From positions 186,001 to 250,000 of the forward strand of contig JABYQQ010000003.1 of the NCBI GenBank assembly GCA_022605405.1: 64,000 nucleotides of DNA. Reading direction: 5' to 3'. The notes under the pieces were generated by a model. It was not told the origin of the DNA. It was given only the letters and a program-made list of their open reading frames with translations, and searched no databases. Source of the DNA: Earliella scabrosa (Eukaryota > Basidiomycota > Agaricomycetes > Polyporales > Polyporaceae). The position numbers were made by a program, and so were the translations under genes. Below, piece by piece: positions 11,795 to 41,537 of this stretch. Each line of letters starts with the position of its first letter. Position 1 is the stretch's first letter.

Positions 11795-14122
11795 ATGAGT
11801 AACAACTGCAACAACGCGTCTGCAAGCCAGCCTTCCGCTCGTCCGCCGTTAGAGTCCTGCATACAACCGGCAAGCACGTCACTACCTGCATCTAGCACCG
11901 ACAATATGCGCCTAGACGTGTCCAGGTAGGTGTATCTAAGATGCCCTTGCTGCGACGAACTGACAGACATCTCGCATGGTAGGGCTGCTCCCATGCTACC
12001 CAGACCTCCCTCTCTCTGCGAAGCCTGCTGGAAAGGCCCTTTCGCAGCGCATCTCGGGCTCCTCAGTGAGCCGCTGGACCTCTCTGCCAGCGACGAGTCC
12101 GTGCGTGGGGGATACGCATATACGACTTCGTGGGCAGCGCTCGAGTCCCGTGCTTCCGCGCCCGGACGACCAGACTCAGGATGTCAGTGGTGTCGGCTCG
12201 TGCTAGACACGCGCGAAGAGGAGGACACTTCAACTGCACCGCTGCGCGTGGTCGTTGGAGACCGCGGGGAGCTCCGCAGAGCATGCACCCCGCAGGGCAC
12301 CCAGGGACTGTCGATCTACATCAATGGGAGGCACGGCTTTGCGGGGCACGTGTACACTGGTTCAGGTCGGTCGTGGGCTATGTTTTAGGTTACGGACCTG
12401 CGTTGAGATATAAGCACCGTTACAGATGACCCCGCGGCGCCCTACATCGTTGCACGCACGCGTGTCCTCGAAGTGGGCTCCCCGCGCGCCCTCGCCCTTG
12501 CAAGTGAGTGTATCGACGAATGCATGAACGGACATTCACGCTGCAGCGCTCTGGCCGGTGCTGCCGAGGCCGCCCTCCCTACCCGCCTGGTGGACTGCTC
12601 CGACCCCGACCACCCGCGCCTCGTCTCAACAGGAGGCACTCACGGCGCATACCTGGCGCTCAGCTACGTATGGGGCGAGCCGCAGCCGCACAGCACTACC
12701 CTATCCAACCTCTCCGACTATGCGGACGAGATCGCCTCCACACGCCTACCCCAGACGATCCGCGACGCAATCCACGTCACGCACGCGCTCGGATTCCGTT
12801 TCCTCTGGGCGGACAGCCTGTGCATCATCCAGGATTCAGACGAGGACAAGCGGCGAGAGATTGGGCGTATGCGCCATATCTACCGCAATGCACGCCTCAC
12901 TATCATCGCCTCCAGCGCGCCCCGGGTCGGTGCAGGCTTCCTCCAAGACCGCCCATCAGACGTGACGGAAGACGGGGTTTCATCCGACATCACGCTTCCG
13001 TTCATCTGTCCCCTACGCTCCGATTCCTCGGCCGAGCAACTAGTGGGAACGGTGCACATCTCCCCAAAATCAACAAGGAGCGACCCCTTCGGGTATAACC
13101 ACCTACCATGCGACCCCGGTCGAGAGCCCATTAGCGGGCGGGGCTGGTGCCTGCAAGAGTACTTCATGTCCACCCGCGCGCTCCTTTTCACTTCGCATGC
13201 ACTCCTCTTCAGGTGCCAAACCACAACGCTGAGCATCGGCGGTGCATATTACGATACATACTACGACCGATGCCTGCCCGATTCGCTTTTCCTCCCCGAC
13301 CCACAGCCTAATGTCGTGCCCGACTCCAAGACGTATGAAACGCTCCGTTGGGCGTGGCTGACGGCTATGGAGGACTACACCCGGCGCGCGGTCACCCTCC
13401 CATCGGACAAGCTCGTTGCATGCGGCGGGCTCGCAGAGGAGTTCGCGCGCATATTCCGCTCTGACTATCTCGCCGGCCTCTGGCGCACGACGCTCCTGTG
13501 CGACCTGCTCTGGCGCATCAGCAGCTACCAGGGGAGCCTCACCCGTCCTGCGGGGTACCGCGCGCCATCATGGTCCTGGGCCTCCGTCGACGGGGCGGTC
13601 TTCCCTGGCAGTCCTGAGGTCGGGCAGGCACTCGCCGACGTTGTCCAGGCGGAGGTCGTACTGGAGGATGCCGCGCTGCCATATGGGCAGGTCACGGGGG
13701 CGCTGCTTGTCCTGCGCGCGGCACTCGTGTCCTGCGTGTGCCACAAGGAGGATGAGATACATCGATTTTCTTTTCAGCCTGCCACGGATTCGAGTGCGTC
13801 AGTTCGGGGAAATGTCATCGGCACGGCTGCTACGGAGTTCTTCGGGTCTGGGAGCATTGATTGCGAAGAGGACGAAGGGGCCACACAGGATGCCTGGATT
13901 GTTCCCCTCTGGGGAAGTAAAGGCATGATGGAGGGGCTCGTCGTCATCCCTGCCGATTCTAGGTCCAATTGCAACGGTCTGTTAGGAGCGAAGAGCGGTA
14001 GAAAGCTCCAGGCGTATCGCAGAATCGGGTACATGGTCATGCGTATGCACGGCAAGTTGAAGGGCATCTCTGCTCTGGACTGGATCTCCGAGCAGCCGAT
14101 GGCAGAATTTGAGCTTGTATGA
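11795..14122 (+). CDS. Heterokaryon incompatibility (HET) domain protein
   Basis: Exons 11795..11925, 11983..12365 and 12426..14122; 736 residues. The first intron (57 nt, gtaggt...tggtag) removes an in-frame TAG at 11927-11929 and joins MRLDVSR to AAPMLPRPP. A cysteine-containing N-terminal region is followed by a clear HET domain from about 230: YLALSYVWGEPQ, then RFLWADSLCIIQDSDEDKRR and MRHIYRNARLTIIASSAP, and later GRGWCLQEYFMSTRALLF. The C-terminal part carries YRAPSWSWASVDG, usual in this family. HET proteins mediate non-self recognition and cell death in ascomycetes; in basidiomycetes the family is expanded and mostly untested. The exact start is uncertain because other in-frame ATGs lie upstream. 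Confidence 0.87.
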
Positions 14123-39517: not shown

Positions 39518-39930
39518 GGGAGAGAGAAAGAGAGAATGGGGAGCCAATCAGGACGGCGGATGGGCAAATTCACGGAGCGTGACACGGTGGGAGGTCCGTG
39601 ACAGGATGGAAATAGGGAGAGAGGCGCCAAGAGTTGCCTGGCGACGAGCCGGTATCAATTGATACGCCGTGGTCGATGGACGCCGACACGCACAGCGTTC
39701 CCTCGCCCTGAGTCTTATACGCCCATCTCGCCCCCGCTCCCCATTCCCCTTTCTCCTTCCCTTCTCGTGAGTATCTCCTCGACGCTCGCATCTCGTCCGA
39801 CTGACCGACCGACATGTCTTATGCTGCAGATTCCACCCTCGCGCTAGGCCGCAGGACGACGCATTTCATCGGTTGAACCGACTATCCCCCAGTACACTTT
39901 CCCTCAGCACCCGTTCTTTTTCACGTCAGG
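39518..39930. promoter_or_regulatory. Divergent upstream region of ESF1 and the repeat precursor gene
   Basis: 413 nt between start codons. It contains CT-rich tracts (39720-39780, 39890-39925) on the precursor side. No specific operator was recognised. Confidence 0.4.
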
Positions 39931-41181
39931 ATGTTCTCCCAATTCCTTCGTGTCGCGGTCGCGGTTGCGCTCGTCGCGCAGGCACTTGCCTACCCCATGC
40001 CCATGCCCATGCGCGTGAGTGATCTCTAGATTGGTATGTGAGACGGTGAGCTGAGCTCTGTGCAGCGCGAGGTCGAGGCCCGCCAGCTCGGCACTGTAGA
40101 GACGATCGCCGCATACAAGCGCGCTCCGGAGGTGAACACTATGCCCGTCGACCAACCGACCATGTCGGTCAACGGCAAGATCGTTCCCTTCGAAAACACC
40201 GCTGCGAAGGGCAAGCGCGAACTTAACATGGGCGCTGTCGACAAGCCCCTCAAGGGCAAGCGCTCTCCCGAGGTCAACACCATGCCCGTCGACCAACCGA
40301 CCATGTCGGTCAACGGCAAGATCGTCCCCTTCGAGAACAAGGCGGCGAAGGGCAAGCGCGAGGTTAACACCATGCCCGTTGACCAGCCTACCATGTCGGT
40401 GAACGGCAAGATCGTTCCGTTCGAGAACAAGGCGGCGAAGGCCAAGCGCTCTCCCGAGGTGAACACCATGCCCGTCGACCAGCCCACCATGTCGGTGAAC
40501 GGCAAGATCGTGCCGTTCGTGAACACGGCGGCGAAGGGCAAGCGCGAGGTCAACACCATGCCCGTCGACCAGCCCACCATGTCGGTGAACGGCAAGATCG
40601 TGCCGTTCGTGAACACGGCGGCGAAGGGCAAGCGCGAGGTCAACACTATGCCCGTCGACCAGCCCACCATGTCCGTCAATGGCAAGATCGTCCCCTTCGA
40701 GAACAAGGCGGCGAAGCAGAAACGTTCCCCCGAAGTTAACACCATGCCTGTCGACCAACCGACCATGTCGGTCAACGGCAAGATCGTCCCCTTCGAGAAC
40801 AAGGCGGCGAAGGCCAAGCGCGAGGTCAACACCATGCCCGTCGACCAGCCCACCATGTCCGTCAATGGCAAGATCGTTCCGTTCGTGAACACCGCAGCGA
40901 AGGGCAAGCGCGAGGTGAACACCATGCCCGTCGACCAGCCCACCATGTCCGTCAACGGCAAGATCGTTCCGTTCGTGAACACTGCAGCGAAGGGCAAGCG
41001 CGAGGTGAACACCATGCCCGTCGACCAGCCTACTATGTCGGTGAACGGCAAGATCGTGCCGTTCGTGAACACTGCAGCAAAGGGCAAGCGCGAAGTTAAC
41101 ACCATGCCTGTTGACAAGCCCACCATGTCGGTGAACGGCAAGATCGTGCCGTTCGAGAACACCGCAGCGAAGGGCAACTGA
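39931..41181 (+). CDS. Secreted Kex2-type repeat precursor (putative peptide prohormone)
   Basis: Exons 39931..40014 and 40066..41181; 399 residues. A signal peptide (MFSQFLRVAVAVALVAQALA, cleavage likely after Ala20) is followed by a short pro-region to the first Lys-Arg at 46-47. Then come eleven copies of a 28-30 residue unit and one degenerate 15-residue unit (ELNMGAVDKPLKGKR), each ended by Lys-Arg except the last, which ends KGN. The core TMPVDQPTMSVNGKIVPF is invariant in ten copies and has one Gln-to-Lys change in the eleventh. Between core and KR are two alternating tails, ENKAAK(G/A/Q) and VNTAAKG. Units 2, 4 and 7 start Ser-Pro and unit 1 Ala-Pro before the common EVN. This is the design of fungal Kex2-processed repeat proteins (KEPs), which are cut in the Golgi and secreted. 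No UstYa-type or methyltransferase gene lies nearby, so a cyclised RiPP is not supported. The role is unknown. Confidence 0.88.
40123..41178 (+). repeat. Tandem coding repeats of 84-96 nt
   Basis: Eleven imperfect direct repeats plus one short degenerate unit, all within the precursor's second exon. Neighbouring copies near 40470-40640 and 40830-41090 are almost identical at DNA level, including silent positions, which points to recent duplication or gene conversion. Earlier copies differ more at silent sites (for example GACCAACCGACC versus GACCAGCCCACC). Confidence 0.93.
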
Positions 41182-41537
41182 GGTATGTGTGTTTTACGCC
41201 TTTGCATTGCATGCGAGTTGACAGCTGAATTGGACGCAAGCGATCTCGCTTTCCGCTTCTAATGATCGAGTACGGTCGAGCGGTGGCTAGGCACGGACAC
41301 GGACGATGTGCTACATGTGTTACTGGCTCTCTTGATTTGCGTGCTTTGTATCCTGACCATAGCCGCTTCCTTCGCTTGCGAAGGATTGTCGTTCATTTGG
41401 AATATAATGATAGGATCGAGATTGGGAAACCCATCCGCATGCGTGCCGTCTTTGAACTTGTGAAACGATGCTACATGGATCATTGATACACCAGAGAGTA
41501 AGTACAGCGAAATGGGAGTGTTGATGCCGATTGCATT
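41182..41537. other. Gap between convergent repeat precursor and NudC genes
   Basis: 3' UTR-like. An open frame of 74 codons exists on each strand but has no supporting feature. Confidence 0.5.

Follow-up and report, generated by a model that had tools for sequence, protein, structure and literature searches.

A probable Kex2-processed repeat protein of the polypore Earliella scabrosa and its relationship to the Coprinopsis cinerea KEP 497993 family

The window, which is the whole stretch of DNA analysed here, spans 64,000 nucleotides of Earliella scabrosa contig JABYQQ010000003.1 (positions 186,001 to 250,000, assembly GCA_022605405.1). It lies on contig C3 of a 51.7-Mb genome of 48 contigs. 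On its forward strand, a two-exon gene at 39931..41181 encodes a secretory-type precursor of 399 amino acids. By sequence inspection, the start codon is the ATG at 39931 and the stop codon is a TGA ending at 41181; the sequence-only reading had placed both ends correctly. The frame is open only when a 51-nt intron (40015..40065, GTGAGT...GTGCAG) is removed, this being the sole donor/acceptor pair spliced to yield the 399-residue frame. Read unspliced, the gene reaches a TAG stop five codons beyond the first 28. Exon 1 (39931..40014) contains the predicted signal peptide MFSQFLRVAVAVALVAQALA and the beginning of a pro-region. The signal peptide is predicted by inspection, from hydropathy (2.2 to 2.4 across residues 5-19) and an AXA-like end (ALA before YP), and the start of the precursor resembles that of P0002, a Polyporus homologue described below. 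Exon 2 (40066..41181) encodes the remaining pro-region, 11 long units, one short unit and the stop codon. Upstream of the start codon, donor and acceptor motifs mark a candidate 5ʹ-UTR intron on the same strand (39767..39829, GTGAGT...TGCAG). A donor-like GTATGT lies just past the stop codon (41183-41188) and possibly belongs to a 3ʹ-UTR intron.

The repeat region is organized around dibasic sites. The pro-region has two of them, RR (residues 28-29) and KR (residues 46-47); this first KR and the X-Pro dipeptide AP after it together span 40117..40128. Long unit 1 (EVN...ENTAAKGKR; 40129..40218) is followed by the short unit ELNMGAVDKPLKGKR (40219..40263) and then by long units 2 to 11 with their KR junctions (40264..41178, delimited by sequence and TRF), all on the forward strand. 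The short unit resembles the N-terminal half of a long unit, with a local score of 25 that 17 of 5000 shuffles reached. The precursor contains 12 KR sites, one ahead of the first unit and 11 separating consecutive units, one junction more than the ten previously claimed. EVN followed by the 18-residue core TMPVDQPTMSVNGKIVPF is present in 11/11 long units, and the last unit carries the only change, a replacement of Q by K, already noted from the letters alone. The tails fall into three classes, ENT (two units), ENK (four) and VNT (five), rather than the two (ENKAAK and VNTAAK) first described. They predict three peptide classes in addition to the separate short unit, so an earlier estimate of at least two peptide forms was in the right direction but too low. 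Ten long units have KR at their end, and the residue ahead of it is G (7), A (2) or Q (1); the last long unit ends in GN-stop. Additionally, four of the 11 long units carry an AP or SP dipeptide between KR and EVN (SP before units 2, 4 and 7), a feature overlooked earlier. Taking off one X-Pro dipeptide leaves the EVNTMPVD start of the other seven.

The copies are under selection at the level of the peptide. Across 25 codons, variable sites among copies number 1, 2 and 16 at codon positions 1, 2 and 3, respectively. Against a neutral expectation of approximately 75% nonsynonymous changes, the minimal changes among the 11 copies of the core are 13 synonymous and 1 nonsynonymous (p 1.3e-7). The corresponding counts are 3 and 0 (p 0.011) for the EVN lead and 6 and 2 (p 0.0022) for the six residues of the tail; all these p values are rough because the copies swap sequence and hence are not independent. 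These counts bear out the view that the cores are conserved as protein. TRF identified ten 90-bp copies (88% match, score 1269), and a 17-base degenerate pattern across the KR-EVN junction has 7 matches versus 0 in 100 shuffles. Given these copies, a junction pattern absent from shuffles and variation concentrated at third positions, the repeat is not a product of chance.

Relatives of the precursor are few and were found only with adapted queries. The full-length protein found no match at E up to 10 among at least 7994 candidates scored; as the length limits of that search shut out relatives of smaller size, a 191-aa query and a profile took its place. The 191-aa query gave one match in 1444 candidates, the partial Polyporus arcularius protein K466DRAFT_593634 (P0002; E 3.3e-43), which is 60% identical to exon 2 over 142 aa. 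P0002 begins with MFSQLLRVAVAVA and shares with the window precursor a similar predicted signal peptide, the pro-region, VNTMPVD units, RR/KR sites and X-Pro sites. Its four [EA]VNTMP starts are preceded by AP-AP, SP-EP, EP-IP or AP, and the fourth unit is broken off at the end of the piece. Unlike the window units, those of P0002 are more divergent, and no short unit is seen in the incomplete piece. With the profile, three proteins appeared among the matches listed (at least 7990 scored): P0002, P0003 and P0004. P0003 (110 aa, from ENA) comprises three units; LPAEVASK[SA]PDGNIV occurs in two of them and MPVDVPTMAPDGNIVLF in the third. This protein resembles the window precursor in its INTMPVD...DGNIV unit and its KR/RR sites, and differs in being a short piece without a signal peptide and in having two core types. 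These types, LPAEVASKSPDGNIVPY and MPVDVPTMAPDGNIVLF, belong to one peptide family within a single chain. P0004 (54 aa) is a second P. arcularius fragment with units of like kind; it lies on a contig that differs in length and may come from another copy of the gene or from a gene that has been split. A KGN-stop terminus is common to P0003, P0004 and the window precursor. Loss of the KR sites in homologues was looked for, and the relatives found keep their KR/RR sites.

Other searches yielded no further relatives. Besides the gene itself, no paralogue was found in the genome with the window protein and P0003 as queries; the best remaining matches were the gene's own minus strand (E 0.19), C11 (E 0.30) and C1 (E 1.8). 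The exact octapeptide MPVDQPTM had no match in prokaryote contigs, none of 176 pattern matches in viral contigs was confirmed, and the PDB held no relative of the window protein at E up to 1. With the window protein, three Pfam models (IceA2, Ub-Mut7C and GldM_2nd) exceeded their cut-offs, and matches to three NCBIfam models stayed below theirs. No single stretch passes for any of them, and all were read as repeat artefacts; both sets are absent from P0002, and the Pfam models are also absent from P0003.

Kex2-processed repeat precursors (KEPs) are widespread in fungi (Le Marquer et al. 2019, PMC6339444; Umemura 2020, PMC7329392). As described in the former, a KEP has at least three similar repeats bounded by KR, RR or KK that fill at least 15% of the protein (PMC6339444). 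The window precursor has 11 long units and 12 KR sites, and its repeats amount to 11 x 27 of 399 residues. The X-Ala or X-Pro after a Kex2 site that is typical of STE13-type KEPs is found in 4/11 long units here, at 4/4 unit starts of P0002 and in 1/3 units of P0003. A secreted, Kex2-processed layout had been proposed at the outset, and it gains support from the arrangement of the units, from the KR/RR sites of the homologues and from processing genes elsewhere in the genome. On C15 there is a kexin gene with adjacent S8 and P domains, whose top PDB match is kexin (E 6.5e-77), and on C4 a DPP4-like gene whose top PDB match is DPP4 (E 3.2e-18). S10 carboxypeptidase matches number 62, and Kex1 was not singled out among them. 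A search for Cu2_monoox_C, relevant to C-terminal amidation of a GKR tail, gave no match here or in any of 14 controls and thus says little about amidation. Of 15 M28 matches, the two compared with the PDB were both aminopeptidase-like, so no glutaminyl cyclase was identified.

The surroundings of the gene were surveyed with Pfam, using 17 window frames picked by eye, exon 2 and two homologues. Fourteen of the 17 frames had a match, mostly to housekeeping functions (ESF1, CS domain, mitochondrial carrier, histidine biosynthesis, Rad51, SNAP), and no biosynthetic cluster was seen among the 17. Another of the matches is a HET-domain (heterokaryon incompatibility) open frame of 571 codons at 12407-14122. 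Elsewhere in the genome, groups of UstYa-type matches, four on C6 (1403377-1483888) and nine on C11 (1046516-1275195), suggest dikaritin-like loci.

The closest described counterpart comes from the inky-cap mushroom C. cinerea. Vogt et al. (2022, PMC9769878) report two kinds of peptide from KEP 497993: the long pyro-QIPAELPTKSINGNIEPY(K) forms, detected chiefly in premature caps, and the short pyro-QVPVDEPA, detected in supernatant and mycelium. They also report at least 13 agaricomycete homologues of this protein in other species (PMC9769878). The window core aligns with pyro-QIPAELPTKSINGNIEPY without gaps over all 18 residues, 8/18 being identical, in addition to M/I, D/E, V/I and F/Y pairs. 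The local ungapped score of 50 was reached by 0/20000 shuffles (highest 38). The sequence-only reading knew of no described product with this core, a view that the end-to-end counterpart (PMC9769878) does not support; the exact window core, like four of its fragments, had 0 matches in the 5.39 million papers searched. In the same literature, the C. cinerea peptide strings occur in no paper other than PMC9769878. Eight other peptides named there scored 8 to 13 against the window core, values reached by 727 to 1933 of 2000 shuffles; these controls, detected or predicted, are 7-12 residues long and therefore shorter than the core rather than length-matched, and a further one, GPPAPSW, was left out because a longer control contains it. 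The C. cinerea peptide was picked for comparison after its paper had been read, and the case for homology consists of the detected peptides together with bridging proteins. Core 1 of P0003 is 10/18 identical to the C. cinerea long peptide (0/20000 shuffles reach its score), and P0003 bridges the two with 10/18 to the C. cinerea peptide and 12/18 to the window core, which itself shares just 6/18 with P0003 core 1 and 5/18 with core 2.

Most likely, the window gene is orthologous or closely related to the KEP 497993 family. Both have the layout of secreted Kex2 repeat precursors, and their 18-residue cores align without gaps, the kept part being a PxxxPTxSxNGxIxP[FY]-type core and the varying parts the ends, tails and Ste13 sites. 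However, the window units begin with Glu rather than Gln, with VN ahead of the core, their core ends in Phe rather than Tyr, and a long NxAAKG tail follows. The window gene also has eleven near-identical copies with X-Pro before some units, the comparison on the C. cinerea side being with the detected peptides. Each precursor has a long and a shorter product, a likeness that does not imply that the short ones correspond. QVPVDEPA reaches a score against the window core that 11/5000 shuffles equal; against the short unit the figure is 164/5000, which is not convincing, so the short unit as counterpart of the C. cinerea short peptide is a lead only. The type G-1/P-2 of Umemura, with 64 KEPs from 49 genera and none beside DUF3328 (PMC7329392), may be the KEP 497993-like family to which the window gene belongs, yet that type is said to be rich in Tyr (PMC7329392) and the window core has none.

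The locus is very probably an agaricomycete KEP gene that shares ancestry with the KEP 497993 family of C. cinerea, and cleavage of its precursor probably yields one short peptide many times over. Taking together the sites, the processing enzymes encoded in the genome and the findings in C. cinerea, we infer a pathway in which each cleavage, the secretion and the final ends are putative, as is the function. The precursor would enter the ER, kexin would cleave after each KR, a Kex1-type carboxypeptidase would take off the C-terminal KR, and a Ste13-type dipeptidyl aminopeptidase would take off AP or SP. As Ste13-type trimming sites, these dipeptides would leave all long units with an identical N-terminus. 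The long units would then start with EVNTMPVD and end in ...AAKG/A/Q, the last one in ...AAKGN, and they may be trimmed further to a core of about 18-21 residues. Each precursor would yield approximately eleven linear peptides of 28 residues (or trimmed forms) and one of 13 residues. Predicted monoisotopic masses are 3000.505 for EVNTMPVDQPTMSVNGKIVPFENKAAKG, 2943.483 for the ...VNTAAKG form, 2973.458 for the ...ENTAAKG form, 2302.134 for EVNTMPVDQPTMSVNGKIVPF, 1959.980 for TMPVDQPTMSVNGKIVPF and 1370.723 for ELNMGAVDKPLKG, with a shift of minus 18.011 for pyro-Glu in forms that start with Glu.

Other readings of the locus must be set against this one. The minus strand holds open frames of 393 and 429 codons, as expected if the gene lay on the opposite strand or the repeat were non-coding; nevertheless, only 3/24 residue columns vary in the coding frame versus 8 to 17 in the other five frames, and the homologues align to the plus frame, which leaves this idea with almost no credence. 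Homogeneous tandem repeats also suit a wall or surface protein that acts uncut, the KR being merely part of the repeat, and secreted wall proteins are often repetitive. The homologues, however, keep KR/RR while the flanking tails change, and X-Pro dipeptides, where present, directly follow KR. Moreover, the related C. cinerea peptides were reported free and gone in the knockout (PMC9769878), and a structural role is very unlikely. Scarcely more probable is a dikaritin-type RiPP precursor, its cores cyclized by UstYa (DUF3328) oxidases after Kex2 release. Ustiloxin-type precursors likewise combine a signal peptide with KR-bounded repeats, and the genome has at least 19 UstYa matches. Yet 0/19 lie on C3, which makes a linear peptide likeliest, the Pfam-matched window frames are mostly housekeeping genes, and the core lacks Tyr, Trp and His. 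The related C. cinerea peptides are also reported as linear and minimally modified, with an N-terminal pyroglutamate (PMC9769878).

An alpha-pheromone-like peptide for mating or self-signalling, read by a receptor, is somewhat less improbable than these but still unlikely. The peptide is conserved, and KR with X-Ala or X-Pro sites is the processing layout of ascomycete alpha-pheromone precursors (PMC6339444), with no similarity of the cores claimed. Against this, the sexual pheromones of basidiomycetes are only of the a-type according to Le Marquer et al. (PMC6339444), the 17 window frames given to Pfam include no mating-type genes, and knockout of the C. cinerea homologue, which abolished the peptides, left growth and fruiting without visible phenotype (PMC9769878). 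The product of this KEP gene would most likely, if tentatively, be an extracellular peptide that the fungus can do without and that serves in contacts with other organisms, a role suggested by Vogt et al. (PMC9769878), rather than a mating pheromone. Synthetic peptides had no antibacterial activity in their report (PMC9769878), which, like the knockout, bears on the signalling or surface role conjectured in the sequence-only reading. A more far-reaching proposal, which we regard as rather doubtful, is that one precursor carries two distinct peptide signals, long and short, whose conservation reaches from inky caps to polypores and which leave the precursor in different tissues, and that in polypores the long peptide has been amplified to eleven homogenized copies and has acquired Ste13 sites that force one N-terminus.

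The comparison ties a polypore-like precursor to a family of peptides that mass spectrometry has already revealed in another mushroom. Mushroom biology has yet to explain conserved peptides for which neither receptor nor phenotype is known, and a precursor with eleven copies would conveniently supply material for testing them. Most likely, the gene belongs to a peptide family already known from other mushrooms, with its marked amplification and its Ste13 sites as the distinguishing traits.
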